A stretch of 56,180 nt of DNA, from NCBI GenBank assembly GCA_903891415.1, contig CAITEH010000043.1, positions 1-56,180 of the forward strand, given 5' to 3'. This DNA is from Candidatus Firestoneibacteriota bacterium (GTDB lineage: Bacteria > Oederibacteriota > D2-FULL-39-29). Shown piece by piece: positions 13,490-26,898 of this stretch. The notes beneath the pieces are model-generated. The model made no database searches. It was not told the DNA's origin and was given only the letters and a program-made list of their open reading frames with translations. Numbering within the stretch: position 1 is the stretch's first letter; every line of letters begins with the position of its first letter. Both the position numbers and the translations under genes were made by a program.

Positions 13490-14857
13490 CTAGTAATAGA
13501 TGTCTCGCTTGCCATTTTTTATTTCTAACAAGCCCGCCCGGGTCTTTTCCAGCATCACCGGGTTTTCTATTTTTTTAATATAGTGTTCTATGACCTTGTA
13601 GCCGTCTTTTTTCAGGCCGGGAGAGGCAAAATCTTCCAGGTATTCCGCGAAAGTTAAAAGGCCGTTGGTCCGGCAGAATTTGTGTATTTCGCCCGGTTTG
13701 GACAGGTACATAAAGTCTTCTCCGGTCCGGCCCAGCCTGTAGCAGGCGGTGCAGAAGGACGGTAAAAAGCCTTCTTTCAAAGCGTCTTTGATGACCTCTT
13801 CCAGGCTCCTGGAGTCATGCCCCTTGAACTGGGAAGCATCGGCGCTTTTGCCATAACCGCCCGTCGCGGTCACTGACGCGGCCGAGGTCTGGGAGATCCC
13901 TATCTTAAATGCTTTTCTTCTTATCTCCGGCGACTCGCGCGTGGAAATTATCATGCCGGTATAAGGAACGGCAAGACGAAGGATCGCGATTATCTTTAAA
14001 AAATCCTCATCCGAAACCGGATACTCCGGTGCGTATTTTACCGTAGGCGCTTCACAGAGGCGGGGCACGGAGATGGTATGCGGACCCACTCCTCCGGCTT
14101 TATCCATATGCTCCGCGTGAGCAATAAGTCCAAGTACTTCAAATTTCCAATCATAGAGTCCAAATAACACGCCCAGGCCGCGATCATCAATACCGGCTTC
14201 AAGCGCCCGGTCATGCGCGGTCAACTGCCGGTCGTAATCCGCCTTGGGCCCTTTGTGAAGTTTCGCGTAAGTAGCCCGGTGATAGGTTTCCTGAAAAAGC
14301 TGGGAAGTCCCGATGTTAGCGGCTTTTATTTTCCTGTAATTCTCAACAGTGGTGGCGGCTATGTTAAAATTGACTCTCCGGATATTCCCTTTTTCTGTTC
14401 TTACCTTATAGATCTCGTTTATTACCTCGACCACATACTCGATGGGATTCTCTTTCTGGTCTTCGCCGAACTCCAGAAGGACCCGCTTGTGCCCCATGTT
14501 GATAAGTATCTTTATCTGCTCTCTGACCTGCTCCATGGTGAGCTTGCTTCGCTTTAGGTTTTTATTTTCGGTATGAAAATTACAGTAAACACAGTTATTA
14601 ACACAATGATCCGATACATATAGAGGAGCAAAGAAAACAAGCCGCTCGCCGTAGATCTCTTCCTTGATCTTTGCTGCCGTATTGAACATCTCTTTCAGCA
14701 GGCGCGGGTCGGAAAGATTGATAAGCACACCGACCTCTTCCATGCTGAGCCCTTTTCTTTCTTTGGCTTTTTTTATTACGGCCTCCGCCGTTTTGGGACC
14801 GGCATTCTTTGTCTCCGCCAGTATCTTGAATATCTTTGCTTCATCTATAATGCTCAT
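13490..14857 (-). CDS. hydG: [FeFe]-hydrogenase H-cluster maturase HydG (radical SAM tyrosine lyase)
   Basis: A 455-residue radical SAM enzyme that cleaves tyrosine to deliver CO and CN- for the diiron subcluster of [FeFe]-hydrogenase. The SAM-cluster motif is CVNNCVYC (Cx3Cx2C). The C-terminal auxiliary-cluster motif is CTAC, then exactly 22 residues, then C, the Cx2Cx22C signature of HydG that separates it from thiamine-synthesis ThiH. I use the ATG at 14857, preceded by AAAGGAAAAAAG and overlapping the stop of the E1-like gene (ATGA); an upstream TTG at 14875 is less likely. HydE and HydF are not in the window. The gene shares a transcript with the ThiF/HesA-family enzyme and lies just downstream of hydrogenase operon 1. 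Confidence 0.96.
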   Translation of the reverse strand: MSIIDEAKIFKILAETKNAGPKTAEAVIKKAKERKGLSMEEVGVLINLSDPRLLKEMFNTAAKIKEEIYGERLVFFAPLYVSDHCVNNCVYCNFHTENKNLKRSKLTMEQVREQIKILINMGHKRVLLEFGEDQKENPIEYVVEVINEIYKVRTEKGNIRRVNFNIAATTVENYRKIKAANIGTSQLFQETYHRATYAKLHKGPKADYDRQLTAHDRALEAGIDDRGLGVLFGLYDWKFEVLGLIAHAEHMDKAGGVGPHTISVPRLCEAPTVKYAPEYPVSDEDFLKIIAILRLAVPYTGMIISTRESPEIRRKAFKIGISQTSAASVTATGGYGKSADASQFKGHDSRSLEEVIKDALKEGFLPSFCTACYRLGRTGEDFMYLSKPGEIHKFCRTNGLLTFAEYLEDFASPGLKKDGYKVIEHYIKKIENPVMLEKTRAGLLEIKNGKRDIYY

Positions 14858-15594
14858 CTTTTTTCCTTTCCGCAAACCACACAGTGTGGATCTCTTTTTA
14901 TTACGATCTTTCGAAATTCCTGGGTTAAACCGTTCCAGGTTAAGAGTTCGCTTTTCAGATTCCCGCCGGTACCGGCCAGATATTTTACTGCCTCCATGGC
15001 CTGAAGAGAACCTATGACTCCCGGGGTTGCTCCGAGAACGGGGAATATTCCCTTAGCCGGAAGCCCTTCAAAAATACAGGCAAGACAAAAGCTCTTTTTG
15101 GGTAAAATAAGCGCCAATTGGCCGAAATAGCCGCTTATGCCGCCGAACAGCAGGGGCTTTTTCTTTTCCACAGCGTAGCTATTCAGAAGAAATCTGGTTT
15201 CAAAATTATCCAAACAGTCAAGAAGCAGGTCTGCTTGCCGCGCGTATTGGTCTATATTTTCCCCGGTTATTCTTTCCGTAACCGCTTCTATTTTAATATT
15301 ATCATTCAAAGCTTCAAGGGTTGTCTTGGCCGAAAGCGCCTTATTCTTTTGAATCCGCTTTTTGCTGTGCAGTACCTGGCGGTTCAGATTTGAAAGTTCC
15401 ACTTTGTCAGAATCTGCAATAATTATCCGTCCAATTCCGGCACCGGCCAGGTAAAGTGCCGCGGAACTTCCAAGGCCTCCGGCACCCACCATAAAAACCG
15501 TTGATTTTTTAAGCCTTTTTTGCCCTTTTTCCCCAAAAAGCATTATTTGTCTTTTATATCTTTCTTTTTCAGCTGCCGATAAAAATATGCTCAT
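14854..15594 (-). CDS. ThiF/MoeB/HesA-family adenylyltransferase (E1-like)
   Basis: A 246-residue E1-like enzyme using the ATG at 15594. The Rossmann ATP site is VFMVGAGGLGSSAALYLAGAG; the family sequence DxVELSNLNRQ is present as DSDKVELSNLNRQVLH; LLLDCLDNFETR follows, and the zinc-binding pairs are CLAC and CVVC. Such enzymes adenylate the C-terminus of ubiquitin-like sulfur carriers (ThiS, MoaD). No carrier gene is adjacent. The four-base overlap with hydG argues for a role linked to hydrogenase maturation or to sulfur/cofactor supply rather than thiamine. The frame could extend to a TTG at 15630, but that codon lies in the -35 of a good promoter. Confidence 0.9.
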   Translation of the reverse strand: MSIFLSAAEKERYKRQIMLFGEKGQKRLKKSTVFMVGAGGLGSSAALYLAGAGIGRIIIADSDKVELSNLNRQVLHSKKRIQKNKALSAKTTLEALNDNIKIEAVTERITGENIDQYARQADLLLDCLDNFETRFLLNSYAVEKKKPLLFGGISGYFGQLALILPKKSFCLACIFEGLPAKGIFPVLGATPGVIGSLQAMEAVKYLAGTGGNLKSELLTWNGLTQEFRKIVIKRDPHCVVCGKEKR

Positions 15595-15600
15595 TACTAT

Positions 15601-15630
15601 ATTATATATATTTGCCTCAGGTTTTTTCAA
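15601..15630 (-). promoter_or_regulatory. Promoter of the E1-like gene and hydG
   Basis: TTGAAA (15625-15630) and TATAAT (15601-15606) on the minus strand with an 18-base spacer. The ATG at 15594 is six bases beyond the -10, so the mRNA would start at or next to the start codon. Confidence 0.7.
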
Positions 15631-15705: not shown

Positions 15706-15763
15706 GATAAAACAGGTACGATAAAGTGAATTGTTCTTAAAGTCTGTAACTGTAAATAAAAGA

Positions 15764-15787
15764 AAGGCCGGTGTTTAAACCGGCCTT
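15764..15787 (-). terminator. Terminator of hydrogenase operon 1
   Basis: A 9-bp stem (AAGGCCGGT/ACCGGCCTT) with a 6-base loop is followed on the minus strand by TTCTTTTATTT. It lies 55 bases after the last gene of operon 1. Confidence 0.8.
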
Positions 15788-15841
15788 CTAAAAGTCGCAT
15801 CATTTTTGTAAACTGCCATAGAGCTTTACCCATCTTACTTT

Positions 15842-16372
15842 CTACTTTACTTTTTTTTCCTGTTTTCTGAATTTCTCAAGAATTCCCGGTATTTTCTCCG
15901 GTACCAGCCTTACAAATACTTCTTCATTTATCTGAACAACGGGTGAAAGGCCGCAGCAGCCAAGACATCTTGTAATACTCAGGCCAAAAAGCCCATCAGG
16001 GGTAACATCGCCAAGCTTTATTTTGAGTTCCTCCTGCATCCGCTCAAGGAGCCGGGAGCCGCCGGCCACGTAACAGGCGGTACCTTTGCAAACATAGATC
16101 TGATATTTTGCTTTGGGCTTCAGCGAAAAAAAGTTATAAAACGTGGCCATACCGTAGATATGCGCGGTCGGAACACTGAGTTTCTCGGAAACCACATCCA
16201 TCGCTTCTCTCGGGATATAGCCGAATATTTCCTGGACCTTGTGAAGCACGGTCATAAGAGCGCCCTGATTATCATGCAGGGGTTTGTAGTCCTTGATAAA
16301 TTCTTTCAGCTCTTTCAGTCCATCCTGTTTTTCTTTTTCTTTTAATTCAGGAGCACATGTGCATGTATTCAT
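15842..16372 (-). CDS. hydC: HydC/HndA-like NuoE-type [2Fe-2S] subunit of hydrogenase 1
   Basis: A 176-residue thioredoxin-like ferredoxin subunit. The NuoE fold region reads LHKVQEIFGYIPREAMDVVSEKL and MATFYNFFSLKPKAKYQIYV. The [2Fe-2S] ligands are in CKGTAC and CLGCC, the Cx4C...Cx3C pattern of NuoE (the middle residue of CLGCC is an extra Cys). It would pass electrons between the flavin subunit and the hydrogenase subunit in an electron-bifurcating HydABC/Hnd complex. Good ribosome binding site (GGGGGAGAG), 13 bases after hydA. Last gene of the operon, followed by a terminator. Confidence 0.92.
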   Translation of the reverse strand: MNTCTCAPELKEKEKQDGLKELKEFIKDYKPLHDNQGALMTVLHKVQEIFGYIPREAMDVVSEKLSVPTAHIYGMATFYNFFSLKPKAKYQIYVCKGTACYVAGGSRLLERMQEELKIKLGDVTPDGLFGLSITRCLGCCGLSPVVQINEEVFVRLVPEKIPGILEKFRKQEKKVK

Positions 16373-16385
16373 TTTCTCTCCCCCT

Positions 16386-18173
16386 TTATCCGATATTCAC
16401 GGTATCTCTGACTTCTGACGGCACTCCTTTCGGACATGCGCAGTGATAATGCGTGTGAAGAAGCTTGTGTGAAAGTTCCCCGAGCGGCTTTTGCAGGAAT
16501 TCTTTATAGATAGCCGTGATAAGCGGGTTCTCGTGAGATTTTCTAAGTTTCTTTCTTTCATCGATATCGTAAAGGCCTTCCGAGCGCAGGGAATAGAGCT
16601 CTTTGTCCATCGCTTCAAGATCACCCTGCGGATAGATCTGCCCGCCGCCTCCGATACAGCCCCCGGGACAGGTCATAACTTCCACGAAATGGTATTTCCG
16701 CTTGCCTTCTTTTATTTCTGTGAGGAGTTTATGCACGTTGGCCAGGCCGTTAACCACAGCAACGTTCACCTTGGTTCCGGCAACATCAATTACAGCTTCA
16801 CGGATACCGGAAAGGCCCCGCACATCCTTAAAATCAACCGAAGGCAGTTCCTTTTTGGTTATTACTTCATAGGCGGTCCTGAGAGCCGCTTCCATAACTC
16901 CGCCGGTTACACCAAAGATAGGCGCCGCGCCGGTGGATTCGCCCATGGGCCCGTCAAACTGTCCGGGCTTTAATTCCTGGAATTTAATTCCGGCCTGTTT
17001 TATCATCTTGGCGAGTTCTCTTGTTGTGAGCACAACATCAACATCTCTGAACCCGCTCGAATTCATTTCAGGCCTGGCGCATTCGTATTTTTTTGCGGTG
17101 CAGGGCATTATGGAAACAGAAAAGATCTTTGCCGGATCCAGCCCGGCCTTCTTTGCGTAGAAGGTTTTGATCAGCGCTCCCATCATTTGCTGGGGAGATT
17201 TACAGGTAGACACATTCTCAATAAATTCCGGATGAAAGGTTTCCAGATATTTTATCCAACCCGGAGAACAAGAAGTGAACATAGGGAGTTTGCCGCCTGT
17301 TGTTAACCGCTTAATGAATTCATGGCCTTCTTCAATTATGGTAAGATCGGCCGAGAATTGTGTGTCAAAAACCACTTTAAAACCAAGCATTCTGAGAGCT
17401 GTGACCATTTCATAGGTCTTATCCGTGCCCGGAGCAAAACCAAAAGCTTCTCCAACCGCGACCCTTACCGCCGGCGCGATCTGAACCACACATACTTTTT
17501 CAGGGTTATTTAAATTCTTAAATGTTTCTTTTATCCCATCCTTCTCGGTAAGCGCCGCGGTAGGGCAGACCAGCGTGCACTGGCCGCAGTTAATGCAAAC
17601 GCTTTCCAGCATGTTCATATTGTAAGCAGGCCCTACATTGGTCTTATAACCTCTGGCGGAAATAGAAAGCGCGTTAACACCCTGTATCTCGGCGCAGACT
17701 CTGACGCATTTCCCGCAAAGAATACATTTATCCGGGTCGCGGACAATGGAACAGGAGGAATCATCTATCGGAAAATGTTTTCTTTCCCCGGCGTAAAGGT
17801 ATTCTTCCACTCCCAGGGTCGCGGCCAGCTGCTGCAGCTCGCAGTTATTGTTCCTCTCGCAGATCTGGCATTCTTTCGGATGGTTGTCCAGGATCAATTC
17901 AACAATATCCCTGCGTGCTTCTCTTATAGCCGGTGTGTTGGTCTTTACGTTCATGCCTTCAAAAACTGTAGTAACACAGGAGGCCGGGAAATTCTTTGAA
18001 CCGTCAACCTCTACTACACAGACCCGGCAGGCGCCGACACTTGAAAGCCTGGGGTGATAACAGAGCCGCGGAATGTGGATCCCTATTGAATCCGCTGCCT
18101 GCATGATCGTCGAATCCTCGGCAACTTTTACCGCTATGCCGTCTATTATGAGGTTTATCATTTTCTTTTCCAT
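16386..18173 (-). CDS. hydA: [FeFe]-hydrogenase catalytic subunit 1 (HydA/HndD type)
   Basis: 595 residues from the ATG at 18173, with GGAGG nine bases upstream. N-terminal plant-type [2Fe-2S] domain (CYHPRLSSVGACRVC), the His-Cys3 cluster motif HPKECQICERNNNC, and two [4Fe-4S] ferredoxin motifs CILCGKCVRVC and CINCGQCTLVCP. The H-cluster domain has L1 TSCSPGW, L2 MPCTAKKYE and L3 EVMTCPGGCIGGGGQ, and the C-terminal LLHTHYH typical of multimeric bifurcating enzymes. In L1 the usual second cysteine of TSCCPxW is serine, unlike hydrogenase 2 in this window. The partner subunits flank it: the fused flavoprotein one base upstream and the NuoE-like subunit downstream. Confidence 0.96.
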   Translation of the reverse strand: MEKKMINLIIDGIAVKVAEDSTIMQAADSIGIHIPRLCYHPRLSSVGACRVCVVEVDGSKNFPASCVTTVFEGMNVKTNTPAIREARRDIVELILDNHPKECQICERNNNCELQQLAATLGVEEYLYAGERKHFPIDDSSCSIVRDPDKCILCGKCVRVCAEIQGVNALSISARGYKTNVGPAYNMNMLESVCINCGQCTLVCPTAALTEKDGIKETFKNLNNPEKVCVVQIAPAVRVAVGEAFGFAPGTDKTYEMVTALRMLGFKVVFDTQFSADLTIIEEGHEFIKRLTTGGKLPMFTSCSPGWIKYLETFHPEFIENVSTCKSPQQMMGALIKTFYAKKAGLDPAKIFSVSIMPCTAKKYECARPEMNSSGFRDVDVVLTTRELAKMIKQAGIKFQELKPGQFDGPMGESTGAAPIFGVTGGVMEAALRTAYEVITKKELPSVDFKDVRGLSGIREAVIDVAGTKVNVAVVNGLANVHKLLTEIKEGKRKYHFVEVMTCPGGCIGGGGQIYPQGDLEAMDKELYSLRSEGLYDIDERKKLRKSHENPLITAIYKEFLQKPLGELSHKLLHTHYHCACPKGVPSEVRDTVNIG

Positions 18174-18174
18174 G

Positions 18175-21100
18175 TTATTCAACCTCCTTCTTATCGCAGC
18201 GCAAACAACGATCGCACTCTTCCATCGCCTGGCTCTTTGTATAGCCGAGTTCCACTTCCGTGAACGCCTGTAAACGCTTTTCCATGGTCAGTTTCGCGTG
18301 CTTGATCCTTTTCTTTTCTTTTATTTCTTTGGCGGGATCGATATACGGAACTGCTTTTCTTTCGCCTTTTATTGTATATCTGTCTCTGGAGAGCTCCTCG
18401 CCCCTGGCGCCTTTAAGGTATCTGTCTATTGAGATAGCCGCTTTCTCTCCGTCAGCTATGGATTCAATGACTGTACCGCCGCCCGTGACAACATCCCCGC
18501 CGGCAAATACCCAGGGAATATTGGTAACCAGAGTTCTCTTATCCACCGATACGGTATCCCAGTCGGTCATTATCAATTTATCCTTCGTGAGTTCGGCGCA
18601 ATTCGGCTTACCGCCGATAGCGCTTATTACAATATCCACCGGAAGGATAAATTTTTCGTCGGTAGGAACCGGTTTTCTCCTGCCCGTGGCGTCAAACTCG
18701 CCGGGCTTGGTATGAAGGCATTCCAGTTCCATGATCTTGCCTTGCCTGCCTTTGATATTGTTAGGGATCAGCAGGAAATGCAGTTTGGCGCCTTCCTTTT
18801 CACATTCATCAACTTCCTCGGGAATCGCGGGCATGTCTGACCGGTGCCTTCTATATATTACATGTACCTCGGAAGCTCCAAGCCTGAGACAGGTTCGCGC
18901 GACATCCATGGCGGCGTTTCCGCCCCCGATCACCGCTACCTTTTGGCCCGTTACCGGCATATTGTGCTCTTCGTCAATAACTATCGAATAAACACCTTTG
19001 ATCTTTTTGATCCTTTCAGTATTGTAGTTCTTGAGGAAAGAAAGTGAGCCCATAAAACCAAACAAGTCTGTACCGTGGATCTTAAGCGGTACTTCCTTCC
19101 AGGCGCCAAGGGCAAGATAAACTGCCTCAAATCCTTTATCTTTAAGATCTTTAAGCGACAGATCCTTTCCAAAATGCACGCCTGTCTTGATCTTCACGCC
19201 GACATCCGTAAGGCGTTTAATATCCCGGTCAACTATGTCTTTGGGCAGCCGGTACTCCGGGATGCCCAGGGTCAACATGCCGCCCGCAACTTTCTCCGAT
19301 TCATAGACAGTAACCTGATAACCCCGTTTTACCAGGTGATAGGCCGCAGAGAGGCCGGAAGGACCGCTTCCAATTATCGCGACCGGAGCCTTACGGATCT
19401 TCCCGTTGAATTTGTCTATCTGTATTCCCTTGTCCCCCGAAGTATAGTCGGCCGCAAACCGCTTGAGCATCATTATAGAAATGGGTTCTTCCATCTTCCC
19501 CCTTCTGCAATTGGACTCGCACGGGTGATGACAAACACGGCCGCAAACAGAAGGCAGAGGGTTTCTTTTTAATATCAATTCAATACTGTCCTTAAGCCTG
19601 TCCTCTCTTATATGTCCGATAAAGCCCGGAATATCTATATTTACCGGGCAGGTATGCTGGCAGGGAGAAACAAAGAGCTCGCCGCAAACAGCTGATTTAC
19701 ATTTTCTGTCCCTTATATGCGATTCATATTCATCCCTGAAATACTTGATAGTAGAAAGCACGGGATTCGGCGCGGTCTGGCCCAGGCCGCACAAGGCCGT
19801 TTTCTTTATGCTGTTCCCCAGTTTTTCAAGAGTTTCTATATCCCCTTCTTTTCCCTCGCCGCGGGTGATCCTCTCGAGAATTTCAAGCATTCTTTTGGTT
19901 CCTTCCCTGCAAGGCGTGCACTTACCGCACGATTCATCCTGCGTGAATTCCAGGAAGAATTTAGCCACATCTACCATGCAGTCCTTTTCGTCCATAACAA
20001 TAAGCCCGCCGGAACCCATAATGGAACCCGCGGAGATCAAAGAATCATAATCTATCGGCGTGTTCAGGAATTTTGTCGGAAGGCAGCCGCCGGAAGGGCC
20101 GCCGGTCTGGGCAGCTTTAAATTTCGCGTCGGTTTTCGTTCCGCCGCCGATATCAAAGATAACCTCTCCAAGGGTGGTGCCCATAGGGACCTCAACAAGC
20201 CCCGTATTTTTTATCTTACCGGCCAAAGCGAAGACTTTGGTACCCTTGCTTTTTTCCGTACCGATGGAGGCAAAATACTCCCACCCGTCCAAGATAATCA
20301 CAGGTATATTTGCCCAGGTTTCCACATTGTTTATGAGCGTGGGGCAGCCCCAGAGCCCTTTAACCGCCGGGAAGGGCGGCCTGGTTCTGGGCATACCGCG
20401 CATACCCTGTATAGAATTTATCAGCGCGGTTTCTTCACCGCAAACAAAAGCCCCCGCACCCAGCACCAGATCGAGCTCAAACGAGAAATCACTCCCGAGA
20501 ATATTCTTTCCCAGCAGGTTCTTTTTTTTGGCTATTTCAATGGCTTTTTTTAATCTTTCCACTGCCAGCGGATATTCAGCTCTGATGTAAACAATACCCT
20601 GGGAGGCCCCGACAGCATAACCCCCTATGGTCATAGCTTCTATTACAGAGAAGGGATCGCCTTCAATTACACTCCGGTCCATGAACGCGCCGGGATCGCC
20701 TTCATCCGCATTACATATTACGTATTTAACATCGGTTTTTTGGTTTGCCACAAAACCCCATTTTGTCCCGGTTTTAAACCCGCCTCCCCCCCTGCCTCTG
20801 AGGCCTGATTTTGTAACATCTTCGATCACTGTCTCGGGTTTGTAGGCAGTCAGCACCTTGGCAAGAGCTTCGTAGCCCCGGACGCAAAGATAATCATCCA
20901 GCGAGATAGGATCTATGGCGCCGCAATTACGTAGCGCCATTCTTTTCTGTTTGGAAAACTCTTCCAGATCGCCGAATATATAGGAAGACCGGTCGGTCAG
21001 GAACTCCCGGCCAAAATCCGCGGGTGCGGGAAGTATTTTATTTTTACGCTCCACTTTTTTTCTGGCATATTCGGATAAAAGCTGCTTTACTTTTTTTTCG

Positions 21101-21381
21101 TCCACATTCACGTATTTTGCCGGCTTTCTTCCCGGAATAAACACTTCGAGGGTGGGTTCAACATTGCACCTGCCCGCGCAGCCTTTTTCACTGACATAGA
21201 CCCCTTTAAGTTTTTTCTTTTTTATTTCTTCAAGCAGCGTGTCATATACCTTTTTTGAACCTGCGGCTATTTCACAGGTGGACATACCGACGCTAAAACG
21301 GATGTCCGCGTTCCATTTTGGTATATTGTTCTTTATTGCTTTTTGTTTCATGCTCTTTACTTTTTCAAGCGGGTTACTCAT
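18175..21381 (-). CDS. hydB: Fused HndB-HndC-GltD/NfnB flavoprotein subunit of hydrogenase 1
   Basis: A 1068-residue fusion. Residues 1-110: thioredoxin-like [2Fe-2S] domain like HndB (Cys36, Cys68, Cys72). Residues 135-560: NuoF/HydB-like FMN, NADH and [4Fe-4S] module (GRGGGGFKTGTKW; cysteines 485, 488, 491, 531). Residues 565-1060: a GltD/NfnB-like NAD(P)H:flavin module with N-terminal iron-sulfur cysteines (574, 578, 613, 617, 621, 625), FAD site IIGSGPSGLSAAYHL (about 669), and second dinucleotide site VIGGGNAAMDVARTCLRLG followed by YRRHRSDMP, typical of NADPH-binding GltD proteins. It ends with a CDRCLRC cysteine pair motif. Ordinary HydB has a small ferredoxin domain at this end instead. 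The fusion suggests one complex that exchanges electrons with NADH, NADPH, ferredoxin and H2. GGAG precedes the ATG. Confidence 0.94.
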   Translation of the reverse strand: MSNPLEKVKSMKQKAIKNNIPKWNADIRFSVGMSTCEIAAGSKKVYDTLLEEIKKKKLKGVYVSEKGCAGRCNVEPTLEVFIPGRKPAKYVNVDEKKVKQLLSEYARKKVERKNKILPAPADFGREFLTDRSSYIFGDLEEFSKQKRMALRNCGAIDPISLDDYLCVRGYEALAKVLTAYKPETVIEDVTKSGLRGRGGGGFKTGTKWGFVANQKTDVKYVICNADEGDPGAFMDRSVIEGDPFSVIEAMTIGGYAVGASQGIVYIRAEYPLAVERLKKAIEIAKKKNLLGKNILGSDFSFELDLVLGAGAFVCGEETALINSIQGMRGMPRTRPPFPAVKGLWGCPTLINNVETWANIPVIILDGWEYFASIGTEKSKGTKVFALAGKIKNTGLVEVPMGTTLGEVIFDIGGGTKTDAKFKAAQTGGPSGGCLPTKFLNTPIDYDSLISAGSIMGSGGLIVMDEKDCMVDVAKFFLEFTQDESCGKCTPCREGTKRMLEILERITRGEGKEGDIETLEKLGNSIKKTALCGLGQTAPNPVLSTIKYFRDEYESHIRDRKCKSAVCGELFVSPCQHTCPVNIDIPGFIGHIREDRLKDSIELILKRNPLPSVCGRVCHHPCESNCRRGKMEEPISIMMLKRFAADYTSGDKGIQIDKFNGKIRKAPVAIIGSGPSGLSAAYHLVKRGYQVTVYESEKVAGGMLTLGIPEYRLPKDIVDRDIKRLTDVGVKIKTGVHFGKDLSLKDLKDKGFEAVYLALGAWKEVPLKIHGTDLFGFMGSLSFLKNYNTERIKKIKGVYSIVIDEEHNMPVTGQKVAVIGGGNAAMDVARTCLRLGASEVHVIYRRHRSDMPAIPEEVDECEKEGAKLHFLLIPNNIKGRQGKIMELECLHTKPGEFDATGRRKPVPTDEKFILPVDIVISAIGGKPNCAELTKDKLIMTDWDTVSVDKRTLVTNIPWVFAGGDVVTGGGTVIESIADGEKAAISIDRYLKGARGEELSRDRYTIKGERKAVPYIDPAKEIKEKKRIKHAKLTMEKRLQAFTEVELGYTKSQAMEECDRCLRCDKKEVE

Positions 21382-21526: not shown

Positions 21527-22177
21527 TCATTTTCCGTTTTCGTCTTTCTTTTTTTCGCCGCGTTCTCTTGCATTGACATAGTAGATAACGTTCTCCAGCT
21601 CTATGGCCAAACTGACGTTATTTACAACCATCCTTTCCGGAACTCTTAAAGTAACCGGTGCAAAATTTAAGATCCCTCTTATTCCGGCAGAAACCAGGAT
21701 CTCGCTTACCTCCTGCGCTACTGTTGCGGGAACCGCAAGTATTGCTACCCGGACCTTATTATTTCTTACATATTCAAAAACATCTTTTATGGGATAGATC
21801 TGAATGTTATTTACTTTACCCTGCTTGGCAGGATCGGCATCAAAAGCGGCTACGATGTTTATGTCCTCTTTTTCAAAGCCGCGGTACCTGGCCAGCGCGC
21901 TTCCCAGGTTTCCCGCGCCCACCATAATAACTTTTTGAACTTCATCTTTTCCAAGTATGGAGTTTATCTTCTCTATCAGGTTATCAATAAGATAACCGCC
22001 TTTTTTATTTCCCGAAATACCAAAGAGCGAAAAATCTTTTCTTACCTGGGCGGCTGTCACACCGGTGGCTTCTCCAAGATTGTCCGAGAAGATCTTTACA
22101 TAGCCCAATTCTTTGAGATCTTTTAAGGTCCGTCTGTACCTGCATAACCTTAATATACAATTCTTCGATTCTGACAT
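21527..22177 (-). CDS. rex: Redox-sensing transcriptional repressor Rex
   Basis: A 216-residue Rex protein. The N-terminal winged helix reads CRYRRTLKDLKELGYVKIFS then LGEATGVTAAQVRKDFSLFG, the family's DNA-recognition helix. The NAD(H)-binding Rossmann domain starts KVIMVGAGNLGSALARYRGFE, and the C-terminal swapped helix ends VIYYVNARERG. Rex is released from DNA when NADH/NAD+ rises. It heads hydrogenase operon 1, and Rex-box-like sites lie at the promoters of operon 2, of pckG and, more weakly, of rex. GGTGG lies seven bases before the ATG. Confidence 0.96.
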   Translation of the reverse strand: MSESKNCILRLCRYRRTLKDLKELGYVKIFSDNLGEATGVTAAQVRKDFSLFGISGNKKGGYLIDNLIEKINSILGKDEVQKVIMVGAGNLGSALARYRGFEKEDINIVAAFDADPAKQGKVNNIQIYPIKDVFEYVRNNKVRVAILAVPATVAQEVSEILVSAGIRGILNFAPVTLRVPERMVVNNVSLAIELENVIYYVNARERGEKKKDENGK

Positions 22178-22178
22178 A

Positions 22179-22196
22179 TTGTACCACCTTTCACAT
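22179..22196 (-). promoter_or_regulatory. Weak Rex-box-like site at the rex promoter
   Basis: TTGTACCACCTTTCACAT on the plus strand matches the Rex consensus TTGTGAAATATTTCACAA at 12 of 18 positions, with one good half site. It overlaps the -10 and the start region, the position expected for autoregulation. Confidence 0.3.
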
Positions 22197-22223
22197 TATA
22201 TATAATTCATATAACTGTGTCAA
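22195..22223 (-). promoter_or_regulatory. Consensus promoter of rex and hydrogenase operon 1
   Basis: TTGACA (22218-22223) and TATAAT (22195-22200), 17-base spacer, both perfect. The leader before the rex ATG at 22177 is only about 10 bases. Confidence 0.75.
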
Positions 22224-22405: not shown

Positions 22406-24157
22406 CTATCTTATATAGATAGGCCTTGCTTTGTACTCTGTGTGGCATAACTTGTGCGCTTGTTCCCCGAGAGGTTTTCCAAGAAAATCCTTGTAAAGTT
22501 TTTGCACATAGGGATTATTGTGAGAACAGCGTATTGCTTTATCTTTATCATCCTGATAGATAGCCGCGGCTCTCTTTAATCTCAGAGAATCAGTTACATT
22601 ATACGGCTGGCCGCCGCCGCCCACGCAGCCGCCGGGACAGGCCATGACCTCAATAAAATGGTAAGGTATCTCCCGGCCTTCTTTCTTTGCCTGGCGGACC
22701 CGGTCCAGAACTTCTTCTACATGAGAAAGGCCATGCGCCACGGCGATCTTTATCTTGGTCCCATTGATATCTATTTCCGCTTCTTTGATGAATTCAAGTC
22801 CCCGGGTTTTTACAAAATTAACATCTTCAAGTTCTTTTCCGGTAATAAAATTATAGGCGGTTCTAAGGGCTGCTTCCATAACTCCGCCGGTGGCGCCAAA
22901 GATAACGCCCGCGCCGGTATAATCCCCGAGCAGGCTGTCGGCTTCCTCGTCGGGAAGGTTCATAAAATCTATCCCCGCCTGTTTTATCATGCGCGCAAGC
23001 TCCCGGGTAGTGATAGCAACATCAATATCCTGAAAACCGGAGGCGAACATTTCATCGGACCTGGTGATCTCGTATTTCTTTGAAGTACAGGGCATAATGG
23101 AGACCATGTAGATCTTGGCCGGGTCTATGCCATTCTTTTTCGCATAGTAGGTTTTTGAAAGCGTCCCTACAATTTCATGCGGAGATTTGCAGGTCGAAAA
23201 ATGATTGATCATGTCTGAATGGAATTTTTCCATAAAATCTACCCAGGAAGGACAGCAGGAAGTTATCAGGGGTAATTCGCCTTTTTTATGAATAAGCCGT
23301 TCGGCGAACTCACTGGCTTCTTCCATTATCGTAACATCAGCCCCAAAGTTAGTATCAAAGACCGCTTTAAAGCCCAGTCTCCTGAATAAGGCGTAAAGTT
23401 TTTTTGTAAGGTTTTTACCCACAACACCAAAGGCCTCTCCTATTGCAACCCGGACCGCGGGAGCTATTTGAATAACGCAGTATTTATCCTGGTTCTTCAG
23501 CGCATCCCAGACAAGCTGGGTATCATCCTTTTCAAATATTGCTCCGGTAGGACAATGCGCGGAACACTGGCCGCACTTTACGCAGGGAGACTCCGAAAGT
23601 TTAATATCGCCGGCAGGCGAGATCCTGGTATCGAGGCCCCTTTCAAGAAAGGAGAGCGCCCAGACATTCTGCATATTCTGGCAAACCTCTATGCAGCGGC
23701 CGCAAAGGATACATTTTGGGGGTTCAAGAACAATGGTGCCGGTTGTTGAATCAATGGGGATATCCCGGAGAAACTTTCTAAAAACATCTTCGCGTATGCC
23801 AAAATCAGAAGCCATGCTTTGAAGTTCACAATTACCGTTCCGGCCGCACTTCAGACAGTCATTTGGATGATTGGATAATATCAATTCGAGTACTGTTTTT
23901 CTTACCTCAACGATGTCAGGATCGTTCGTTGTTATCTCCATCTTATCTTCAAGCGGAGTACAGCAGGCCCGGAGCATCTTATTGGACCCTTTTACCTTAA
24001 CAATACAAAGCCCGCAGGCCGCCGAAGGAGGCAGGTCAGGATGCTTGCACAAGGTCGGGATTTTAATCTGCACCTTTTTTGCCGCTTCCATCACCGTCGT
24101 TCCTTCTTTGACTTCCACGGTAATGCCGTTAATTTTTGCTTCCACCATTTTATACAT
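22406..24157 (-). CDS. hndD: [FeFe]-hydrogenase catalytic subunit 2 (HndD type)
   Basis: A 583-residue HndD/HydA-type enzyme. N-terminal [2Fe-2S] domain (CKHPDLPPSAACGLC), His-Cys3 motif HPNDCLKCGRNGNC, two [4Fe-4S] motifs CILCGRCIEVC and CVKCGQCSAHCP. H-cluster motifs: L1 TSCCPSW (both cysteines present), L2 MPCTSKKYE, L3 EVMACPGGCVGGGGQP. It is clearly a paralogue of hydrogenase 1 but divergent throughout. GGAG lies eight bases before the ATG at 24157. It is the last gene of an operon in the order hndA-hndB-hndC-hndD, the order known for the NADP-linked bifurcating Hnd hydrogenase of Desulfovibrio. A terminator follows. Confidence 0.96.
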   Translation of the reverse strand: MYKMVEAKINGITVEVKEGTTVMEAAKKVQIKIPTLCKHPDLPPSAACGLCIVKVKGSNKMLRACCTPLEDKMEITTNDPDIVEVRKTVLELILSNHPNDCLKCGRNGNCELQSMASDFGIREDVFRKFLRDIPIDSTTGTIVLEPPKCILCGRCIEVCQNMQNVWALSFLERGLDTRISPAGDIKLSESPCVKCGQCSAHCPTGAIFEKDDTQLVWDALKNQDKYCVIQIAPAVRVAIGEAFGVVGKNLTKKLYALFRRLGFKAVFDTNFGADVTIMEEASEFAERLIHKKGELPLITSCCPSWVDFMEKFHSDMINHFSTCKSPHEIVGTLSKTYYAKKNGIDPAKIYMVSIMPCTSKKYEITRSDEMFASGFQDIDVAITTRELARMIKQAGIDFMNLPDEEADSLLGDYTGAGVIFGATGGVMEAALRTAYNFITGKELEDVNFVKTRGLEFIKEAEIDINGTKIKIAVAHGLSHVEEVLDRVRQAKKEGREIPYHFIEVMACPGGCVGGGGQPYNVTDSLRLKRAAAIYQDDKDKAIRCSHNNPYVQKLYKDFLGKPLGEQAHKLCHTEYKARPIYIR

Positions 24158-24162
24158 TTGTC

Positions 24163-25905
24163 CTACTCCTTCATCACGGCTTTAAACTTGCATACATCAA
24201 AACAAACACCGCATTTTATGCACTTCTGCGGATCGATAACATAGCCGGCTTCACGGCTGCCCAAAATAGCGGAAGAGGGGCAGTTCTTCATACAGAGCCC
24301 GCACTTCTTGCACTTTTGAGGATGAATTTTGAAATAGATCAAGGCTTTACACTTCCCCGCCTGGCACTTTTTTTCAACAATGTGTTTCTTGTACTCGTCC
24401 TCAAAATACCTGATAGTTGAAAACACCGGGTTTGAAGCTGACTGGCCCAGCCCGCAGAGCGAAGCTTTTTGCATGGCATAAGAGATCTTTTTCAATTTAT
24501 TCAGATCTTCCAGTTCCCCGTTGCCTTCGGATATTTTTTCAAGGATACGCAGGAGTTGGTAACCGCCAAGGCGGCAGGGCGCGCACTTTCCGCAAGATTC
24601 GTCAACACAGAACTTAAGATAAAATTTTGCCAGATCGACAAGACAGTCAGTTTCATCTATAGCGATCATGCCGCCGGAGCCCATGATCGAGCCCAGTTTG
24701 CTTAGATTCTCGTAGTCTACCGGGGTATCCAAAAATTCCTGAGGAATGACTCCGCCCGAAGGGCCGCCGGTTTGAACGGCTTTAATAGCGCGGTTATTAA
24801 GAATACCGCCGCCAATGTCAAAAATTATCTCGCGGAGAGTGATCCCCATGGGAACTTCAACCAGGCCCGAATTTTTCACCTTGCCGGTAAGAGCAAAAAC
24901 TTTTGTGCCCTTGCTTTTTTCCGTGCCGACCGAGGCAAATTTGGCGCCGCCGCCCGCAATTAATTTCGGAATATTGGCCAGGGTTTCAACGTTGTTAATG
25001 ATAGTGGGTTTTCCCCAGAGGCCTTTAACGGAAGGATACGGCGGCCGGGGATGGGGAGTGCCCCGCTTGCCTTCTATAGAAGCGATCAACGCGGTTTCTT
25101 CGCCGCAAACAAAAGCTCCGGCTCCCAGCCTTATCTCAAGTTCAAAATTAAAATTACTGCCCAGTATATTATTTCCCAGCAAACCCGCGGAAACCGCCTG
25201 ATCTATGGCTTTCTGAACCCTTTCAACGGCCAGCGGATATTCCGCTCTTATATAGAAATACCCTTTTGAAGAACCGATAGTATAACCGGCTATTATCATT
25301 CCTTCAAGAACGGAATGCGGATCGCCTTCAAGCACGCTCCTGTCCATGTAGGCACCCGGATCACCCTCGTCGCCGTTACAGATAACATATTTTTCCGGAG
25401 AGTTCATGCCCCGGGCAAAATTCCATTTCATCCAGGTGGGATAGCCCGCCCCGCCCCTGCCGCGCAGCCCGCTCTTTTTAAGTTCTTCCACAACATTTTC
25501 CGGCTTCATTTCCAGGAGTACTTTTATAAGAGCTTTGTAACCGCCGGCAGCTATATAATCTTCCAGGCTTTCCGGATCTATATACCCGCAGTTTTTTAGG
25601 ACCGCGCGCATCTGCTTTGATTTTTTCTCGTAGAGCAGCTCTTTGATAATTTTGTTCCCTTTTATTGTTTCTTCGACTATCCTTTTGACATCCGTGTTCT
25701 TGATCCCGCTGTACACTATATTTTCCGGCAGGATCTTGACCGTAATGCCTTTTTCATACAATCCGATATCGGCTATTTTCACAAGCTGGACCGGTTCCTG
25801 AAGATTGGCGTCTCTTAATTCATTGGAGAAGAGAGTGTAGAAATCGTTTATCCGGTCCTGCTGGGCGGAGTCGGTATCCCTTAGATATATTATTTTCTTT
25901 TGCAT
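24163..25905 (-). CDS. hndC: HndC/HydB-type flavoprotein subunit of hydrogenase 2
   Basis: A 580-residue NuoF-like subunit with FMN/NADH sites ([37 protein letters not shown]), the [4Fe-4S] motif SCGKCAPC plus CGLGQ, and a C-terminal double [4Fe-4S] ferredoxin domain ([12 protein letters not shown] and [11 protein letters not shown]). The first 100 residues contain no cysteine at all; in other HydB proteins this position holds a thioredoxin-like [2Fe-2S] domain. Here the iron-sulfur version is encoded by the separate gene just upstream. The ferredoxin tail contrasts with the GltD-like tail of the hydrogenase 1 subunit. Start at 25905 with AAGGACGAGA upstream. Confidence 0.95.
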
Positions 25906-25920: not shown

Positions 25921-26265
25921 TTAATTAATTTCGAAAATATAATCATGGAGGAGTTTTTTATTCCTCACATGACGTTCAAGTATGGTAATGGCAACATCTT
26001 TTGTAACCCGGCCATAGAGAACTTTAGGCAGGCCTTCAACATTCACTTCGACCAGGGGCTCAACCGAGCAGGCGCCCTGACAGCCGCATTTTCTTATATC
26101 AATTTCAATATTTCGCTTTTTGGACTCTTCGATAAGAGTGGAATATACCTCATCGGCGCCGGCTGCGACCCCGCAGGTACTCATCCCGACCTTTATCCAG
26201 CTCTTACCCAGATCTTTTTTGAGAGGATCAACATTCATTATGTCTTCTTTAGTTAATTTTTTCAT
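25921..26265 (-). CDS. hndB: HndB-like thioredoxin-fold [2Fe-2S] ferredoxin
   Basis: A 114-residue stand-alone ferredoxin. VGMSTCGVAAGADEVYSTL and KCGCQGACSVEPLVEVNVEG match the HndB family (STCGIAxGA...GCxGxC-x-EPxVEV). The same sequence pattern is fused at the N-terminus of the hydrogenase 1 flavoprotein (MSTCEIAAGSKKVYDTL). It would be an electron-transfer subunit of hydrogenase 2. It starts three bases after the hndA stop and ends 15 bases before hndC. Confidence 0.92.
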   Translation of the reverse strand: MKKLTKEDIMNVDPLKKDLGKSWIKVGMSTCGVAAGADEVYSTLIEESKKRNIEIDIRKCGCQGACSVEPLVEVNVEGLPKVLYGRVTKDVAITILERHVRNKKLLHDYIFEIN

Positions 26266-26764: not shown

Positions 26765-26782
26765 TTGTGATTTGTATCACAA
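26765..26782 (-). promoter_or_regulatory. Rex-box operator of hydrogenase operon 2
   Basis: TTGTGATTTGTATCACAA is a perfect inverted repeat with six central bases, matching the Rex half site TTGTGA / TCACAA exactly. It begins at the last base of the -10 and covers the start site, ending 16 bases before the hndA ATG. Crp sites have a similar half site, but rex lies 4.5 kb away and the genes are redox genes. Confidence 0.75.
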
Positions 26783-26810
26783 TTATATAAAATATATTTT
26801 TCAATGTCAA
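26782..26810 (-). promoter_or_regulatory. Consensus promoter of hydrogenase operon 2
   Basis: TTGACA (26805-26810), 17-base spacer, TATAAT (26782-26787) on the minus strand. Confidence 0.85.
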
Positions 26811-26868: not shown

Positions 26869-26898
26869 CGTATTATGTGATATTTTTCACATAATACG
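26869..26898. promoter_or_regulatory. Second Rex/Crp-type palindrome upstream of operon 2
   Basis: CGTATTATGTGA and TCACATAATACG form a perfect 12-bp inverted repeat around TATTTT. The core TGTGA-N6-TCACA fits Rex or Crp/FNR-type sites. It lies about 60 bases upstream of the -35, immediately after the pabBC stop codon, so it could be an upstream operator or an activator site. Confidence 0.6.

Follow-up and report, generated by a model that had tools for sequence, protein, structure and literature searches.

A GltD module in place of the ferredoxin tail of HydB suggests a possible NADP(H) port in [FeFe]-hydrogenases

Enzymes of the Bfu family share an invariant BfuBC core with iron-sulfur clusters B1-B5, in which ferredoxin is served by B3/B4 (Schut et al., 2022; PMC9304861). 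In Hydrogenedentota, a sub-type I BfuB has been described in which B3/B4 are replaced by DPD_II and a C-terminal flavin adenine dinucleotide (FAD)/NAD(P) domain, and a possible second bifurcation centre at this FAD was suggested (Zheng & Huang, 2024; PMC11406978); a word search of that paper gave no mention of NADPH. In this study, we analyzed a gene of this kind, a fusion of HydB with GltD, in 56,180 nucleotides of DNA from Candidatus Firestoneibacteriota bacterium (assembly GCA_903891415.1, contig CAITEH010000043.1, positions 1 to 56,180; the whole stretch is called the window below). We slightly favor the view, based on sequence comparison, that the fusion splits electrons in an [FeFe]-hydrogenase in which NADP(H) has taken over the low-potential port from ferredoxin.

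The fusion gene is a single frame of 1068 residues without an internal stop (18175-21381, minus strand; Table 1), in which a HydB-type flavoprotein, consisting of a thioredoxin (Trx)-like domain, a flavin mononucleotide (FMN)/NAD domain, an SLBB domain and the sites of clusters B1 and B2, runs at about 19,690 into a complete GltD module. Pfam assigned Complex1_51K (residues 189-360), SLBB (384-432) and NADH_4Fe-4S (471-555) to the first part, and Fer4_20 (DPD_II; 566-647) and Pyr_redox_2 (667-975) to the GltD part. Among PDB entries, HydB and StnB matched residues ~28-571 (A. woodii HydB, 4e-204, with 56% identity over the aligned part) and the GltD of StnC, NfnABC-A and NfnL matched residues 571-1063, and no chain spanning both halves was found among the matches listed. 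For the full-length protein, AlphaFold2 gave a confident model (predicted local distance difference test score, pLDDT, 86.9; predicted template modelling score, pTM, 0.85), whose halves resemble HydB and GltD structures. A sequence-only reading of this DNA had already described one 1068-residue frame with Trx-like, NuoF-like and complete GltD parts, directly ahead of hydA and a NuoE-like gene, and both descriptions hold: hydA1 begins 1-2 bases past the fusion stop and hydC1 follows, giving the order B-A-C. Its name for the protein, an HndB-HndC-GltD fusion, was right about the unusual GltD join and needs one refinement as to the "HndB" domain. This N-terminal Trx domain is regular in HydB and StnB (StnB aligns from residue 29); therefore, the GltD tail is the sole unusual join.

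Within the phylum (Ca. Firestonebacteria), 45 genomes were compared and 15 of them encode full-length HydB::GltD orthologues, with 72-89% identity in the same order and 47-49% outside it. A junction pattern, HI-x4-C-x4-C-x7-C-x3-CP-x4-[IV]P, which occurred once in the window and never in 100 shuffles, recovered all 15 phylum fusions, including one (L041) that was absent from the pattern design, and no other phylum locus. When one genome per GTDB species was scanned, at least 118 stretches matched, and NuoF and GltD lay in one frame in 97 of the 118 listed. These fusions, at least 97 in number, span more than 20 phyla, including Bacillota, Chloroflexota, Myxococcota, Spirochaetota, Acidobacteriota and Planctomycetota, and one of the loci lies on a chromosome-scale Moorella contig. 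An error of assembly, raised earlier as a danger for the position about 19,680, or of annotation is refuted as the source of the NuoF/GltD join and retains virtually no probability, because full-length fusions with fixed spacing recur in the phylum and at these independent loci; nothing in favor of such an error came up in these comparisons. Fusions beside hydA in other genomes, which the sequence-only reading had envisaged, do occur: at least 30 directly adjoin H-cluster HydA, and others adjoin Mo-pterin formate-dehydrogenase-like or HoxU-like A subunits. The fusion is thus portable between A subunits, like the core of the Bfu family. The gene order of most fusions elsewhere is C-(D)-B-A.

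Some loci from this survey deserve separate mention. One HydB::GltD fusion (L142:4035-7253) comes from a contig that was binned with an archaeal metagenome-assembled genome (Ca. Halarchaeoplasma, Thermoplasmatota), and may be an archaeal case or the result of mis-binning. Two GltD-containing frames (L087:1803-5228 and L110:2465-5479) have a different architecture with ~200 extra C-terminal residues; in L087, the NuoF-like part is very divergent and has no Complex1_51K match, and an extra [4Fe-4S] dicluster is located at the end.

Residue conservation was computed over 42 diverse fusions, to which all residue counts below refer. In the bifurcating-type structure 7t2r_B (NiFe-Bfu), the B2 ligands are C438, C476 or Thr, H525, C531 and C536 (PMC9304861), and their equivalents in the aligned window protein are C468, T506, H555, C561 and C566. 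The residues C468, H555, C561 and C566 were invariant in all 42 fusions, and position 506 was Thr, Cys or Ser in 40. Markers of the bifurcating type have also been defined for the FMN core of HydB (PMC7311640); A232, M234 and the glycines of GGPSG were invariant in 42/42, with GGPSG as such in 38/42. Judged by these residues, the FMN core is of the bifurcating type and every B2 ligand of bifurcating HydB is kept. At the B5 [2Fe-2S] site of the N-terminal domain, C68 and C72 were found in 42/42, and the position of C36 was occupied by Cys in 15 and by Gly in 22. The ferredoxin tail (B3/B4) is missing, and the start of GltD lies 8 residues beyond the final cysteine of B2. In complete main-class fusions, the chain terminates in RCLRCD, whose cysteines complete the GltD set of seven near-invariant cluster cysteines; the CLxC pair is C-terminal in the fusion and N-terminal in NfnB in the alignment. 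The FAD and NADP(H) motifs (GxGxxA, YRR) were kept in 40-42 of the 42 sequences. As had been noticed in the sequence-only reading, the second hydrogenase of the window has the ferredoxin tail (2x[4Fe-4S] in HydB2), and the two complexes differ at this port.

In the mechanism that we propose, electrons from H2 would reach the FMN in the HydB core by way of the HydA Fe-S chain and B1, and one electron pair would exit there as NADH. The other pair would travel via the mobile HydC cluster and B2, and then via the two GltD [4Fe-4S] clusters, which would stand in for B3/B4, until the GltD FAD passes it on to give NADPH. Splitting would thus be located at the FMN/B2/HydC site, and the GltD FAD would be an ordinary two-electron transfer flavin. 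The overall reaction would be 2 H2 + NAD+ + NADP+ <-> NADH + NADPH + 2 H+, and in the reverse direction NADH and NADPH would be combined to give H2. The potentials of NADH, NADPH and ferredoxin are -280, -380 and -500 mV, respectively (PMC9304861), and the computed equilibrium H2 was ~3 Pa for NADH alone, 150 Pa for NADH + NADPH (1:1) and 16 kPa for NADH + ferredoxin. The two hydrogenases of the window would then serve two different H2 ranges.

Several points weigh against this mechanism. First, HydB of Syntrophomonas (S. wolfei), which is without B3/B4, does not bifurcate (as cited in PMC11406978), so loss of the tail in the fusion may mean that splitting was lost as well. Second, 15 of the 42 fusions have Tyr at position 370 (F370), which would be the non-bifurcating form of the Phe/Tyr marker (PMC7311640) provided that 370 is the right column. 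Third, the preference of the GltD site for NADP over NAD is read from motifs only. Finally, position 640, discussed below, is His in one sub-group, same-phylum fusions included. The S. wolfei case also favors the main rival explanation, a non-bifurcating hydrogenase with two outlets, in which reduction by H2 of NAD+ at FMN and of NADP+ at the GltD FAD would be independent events without energetic coupling. A hexameric [FeFe]-hydrogenase of Moorella reduces NADP with H2 (PMC11328732), which points in the same direction, though its likely gene cluster differs. On the other hand, non-bifurcating homologues lose B2-B5 (PMC9304861), whereas the fusion locus retains the B2 His/Cys set, HydC and two B5 cysteines, and we consider uncoupled reduction to be a serious but rather unlikely explanation.

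The sequence-only reading had gone further and proposed that the complex balances H2, ferredoxin, NADH and NADPH, doing the work of HydABC plus Nfn. With two bifurcation centres over these four partners, the GltD FAD would bifurcate too, as might be expected from its homology with NfnB and from the NfnB R201 equivalent (R711, 42/42); however, the same Arg is also present in non-bifurcating StnC. In bifurcating NfnB, Glu is a ligand of the cluster adjacent to the FAD; StnC, with its non-bifurcating FAD, has a strictly conserved Lys (K170) at that position (Kumar et al., 2023; PMC10482914). The equivalent position of the fusions was Lys in 33, His in 8 and Arg in 1 (K640 in the window protein), and was never Glu, the residue carried by this genome's own NfnB (L175) and by the PDB NfnB chains, which argues against bifurcation at the GltD FAD. 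The residues of the NfnB PQEEQ loop are also missing from the fusion GltD, a difference that we treat as secondary because the Glu/Lys position was shown to be diagnostic (PMC10482914). In addition, the operon is without an NfnA-like partner, and genuine NfnAB is encoded elsewhere in the genome. Thus, a second bifurcation centre seems improbable, and the four-way balance is also less likely because the ferredoxin port was lost; an enzyme with the three partners H2, NAD(H) and NADP(H) is the better fit. It might also be imagined that ferredoxin is still the partner and docks on the GltD clusters, with the NADP(H) site being secondary or vestigial, since NfnB reduces ferredoxin via its own [4Fe-4S] clusters and the GltD pair could be such an outlet (PMC10482914). 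Conservation of the FAD/NADPH motifs over many phyla is unlike a vestigial site, and tails were exchanged as whole units; we therefore regard ferredoxin docking as improbable.

The exchange of tails could be followed most closely in Moorella, where HydB::GltD was found in 10 of 11 species genomes (one truncated at a contig end). The exception is M. thermoacetica DSM 521T, which has a ferredoxin-tailed HydB at the syntenic locus. Between this locus and that of DSM 21394 (now M. caeni), the flanking genes are 87-95% identical, HydA 93% and the HydB core 90%, whereas the N-terminal domain and tail of HydB are only 29% and HydC 71% identical. M. thermoacetica HydABC has been characterised biochemically as an NAD/ferredoxin bifurcating hydrogenase (Wang et al., 2013, cited in PMC11328732) and, judging from the gene make-up, is probably encoded at this locus. 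In an operon of Aminicenantes, GltD-tailed and ferredoxin-tailed HydB occur on sister cores (Shimodaira-Hasegawa-like approximate likelihood ratio test, SH-aLRT, 99). A tree, which the sequence-only reading had suggested building, needed 8 tail changes for 113 HydB cores, a count that is only a guide as the sample was enriched for fusions. A single origin of the fusion was not rejected in the first sample (approximately unbiased, AU, test, p 0.07) and was rejected after Moorella had been added (p 0.000135). In these comparisons, the HydB tail behaves as an interchangeable low-potential port that was exchanged repeatedly. The broader proposition, that hydrogenases and formate dehydrogenases bifurcating at FMN/Fe-S centres with NADP(H) for ferredoxin are widespread, couple H2 to NADH + NADPH and arose by repeated exchange of the HydB tail, is held more tentatively, at somewhat below an even chance.

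The Ca. Aminicenantes operon (L134 / L221) contains two HydC, both HydB tail types and two short NuoG-N-like subunits, with no H-cluster protein in view at this operon.

The fusion was also compared with described systems. The locus has the H-cluster motifs of HydA1, a NuoE-like [2Fe-2S] HydC1, the FMN/NAD domain, the B1 cysteines and the B2 ligands including the diagnostic His, whereas the B3/B4 2x[4Fe-4S] ferredoxin-type tail is replaced by GltD. Thus, on these features the fusion is related to the Bfu family and lies outside the stated definition of the family. It shares with sub-type I BfuB the DPD_II and C-terminal FAD/NAD(P) domain instead of B3/B4 and the group A3 [FeFe]-hydrogenase, but the gene order there is C-D-B-A, and a possible bifurcating FAD was proposed there (PMC11406978), whereas a non-bifurcating one is favored by the Lys/His found at position 640. 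HydABC/FeFe-Bfu enzymes (T. maritima, A. woodii, T. kivui and M. thermoacetica) have the same HydA, HydC, FMN core, B1, B2 and N-terminal Trx domain, but have the 2x[4Fe-4S] ferredoxin tail and no GltD module. StnABC/NfnABC (S. ovata 8oh5, C. saccharolyticus 9bov and T. sibiricus 9n5u) share the GltD with StnC-type Lys, the C-terminal CLxC and the HydBC-type bifurcating core. In StnABC, however, GltD is in the A-type (NuoG-like) subunit StnC and feeds FMN via B1, whereas in the fusion GltD takes the ferredoxin position of the NuoF-type HydB, and at the window locus a real hydrogenase serves as the A subunit. NfnAB (5jca, 4ylf) has the same GltD fold with FAD and NADP(H) sites, and differs in its NfnA partner, Glu ligand and PQEEQ loop. 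Group A2 of HydDB, the "glutamate synthase-linked" [FeFe]-hydrogenases, also associates HydA with GltD, but its rule needs GltD without NuoF in the gene that comes after hydA (PMC5037454); this label was rejected for the window locus, where hydC is downstream of hydA and the GltD-bearing protein also contains NuoF. Finally, the hexameric HydABCDEF of M. thermoacetica (cited in PMC11328732) similarly links H2 to NADP, but identity with it was rejected because the likely cluster of DSM 521T (L227) has a separate H-cluster protein, a tailed HydB and no GltD.

The fusion architecture is therefore real and widespread and was already reported in 2024; new here are the Lys/Glu diagnostic, which speaks against a bifurcating FAD, and the exchange of tails in Moorella, which makes the role of the tail testable. 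Ferredoxin is taken as the obligatory low-potential partner in HydABC-type bifurcation. If NADP(H) can replace it, the bifurcating core would be of general use, with low-potential ports that can be swapped, and a direct H2/NADPH link, now assigned in metabolic models to ferredoxin plus Nfn, would exist in many anaerobes. The Moorella pair, with another tail on closely similar HydA and HydB core at the same locus, turns the role of the tail in bifurcation into a direct experiment.

Table 1. Positions in the window of the fusion gene, its domains and neighboring features
Feature	Position	Strand	Basis
HydB::GltD fusion gene, 1068 aa, ATG start	18175..21381	-	Open reading frame (ORF), Pfam, PDB matches, full-length orthologues
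N-terminal thioredoxin-like [2Fe-2S] domain (residues 1-120)	21022..21381	-	Alignment; C68, C72 invariant in 42 fusions
Complex1_51K FMN/NAD(H) domain (residues 189-360)	20302..20817	-	Pfam
NADH_4Fe-4S domain: B1 C485/C488/C491/C531; B2 ligand T506; C468 just before, H555 at end	19717..19971	-	Pfam, alignment
NuoF/GltD junction: B2 ligands H555, C561, C566, then C574, C578 of first GltD cluster	19628..19719	-	Junction pattern
Fer4_20/DPD_II two-cluster domain of GltD (566-647): C574, C578, C617, C621, C625; K640 at StnC-K170 position	19441..19686	-	Pfam, alignment
Pyr_redox_2: FAD site GxGxxG 671-676; NADP(H) site G819/G821/A824, Y843-R844-R845	18457..19383	-	Pfam, alignment
C-terminal RCLRCD motif; two further cluster cysteines C1059, C1062	18193..18210	-	Alignment
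hydA1, group A6-type [FeFe]-hydrogenase catalytic subunit (FeFe_hydrog_A6), likely start ATG at 18173	16386..18182	-	Profile match, H-cluster motifs
hydC1, NuoE-like [2Fe-2S] subunit (C95, C100, C136, C140)	15842..16372	-	Profile match, cysteines
Terminator-like hairpin 3' of hydC1	15763..15788	-	Sequence feature
rex, NADH-sensing repressor, directly upstream of fusion gene	21527..22177	-	Family match
Sigma-70-like promoter before rex, 12/12 (consensus match only)	22195..22223	-	Consensus
hydB2, second hydrogenase, ordinary 2x[4Fe-4S] ferredoxin tail	24163..25905	-	ORF, Pfam
hydA2, second hydrogenase	22406..24157	-	Profile match, motifs

At the fusion locus, the Shine-Dalgarno sequence of hydA1, AAGGAGGT, lies within the 3' end of the fusion gene, and the H-cluster motifs of HydA1 are complete (TSCSPGW, MPCTAK and EVMTCPGGCIGGGGQ). 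The hydrogenase operon is closely followed by a ThiF/MoeB-like adenylyltransferase gene that overlaps the beginning of hydG, the H-cluster maturase gene (14854-15630 and 13490-14875). The second hydrogenase operon, hydC2-D-B2-A2, has a perfect Rex operator, TTGTGATTTGTATCACAA (26765-26782), adjoining a 12/12 sigma-70-like promoter (26782-26810), and a further Rex operator-like site with 2 mismatches is located nearby at 26875-26892. The N-terminal Trx domain of HydB2 is degenerate and without cluster cysteines, which are retained in a separate HydD (25921-26265), whereas the fused HydB keeps its own. The same genome also encodes Rnf, pyruvate oxidoreductase and the separate NfnAB. On another of its contigs (C12; L174:3535-7513), a 787-aa NuoE::NuoF::ferredoxin-tail fusion adjoins a 535-aa [2Fe-2S] + half-GltD protein, whose family match ends at residue 304. 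Similar pairs, which would form a Bfu-like complex, were present in most genomes of the order.

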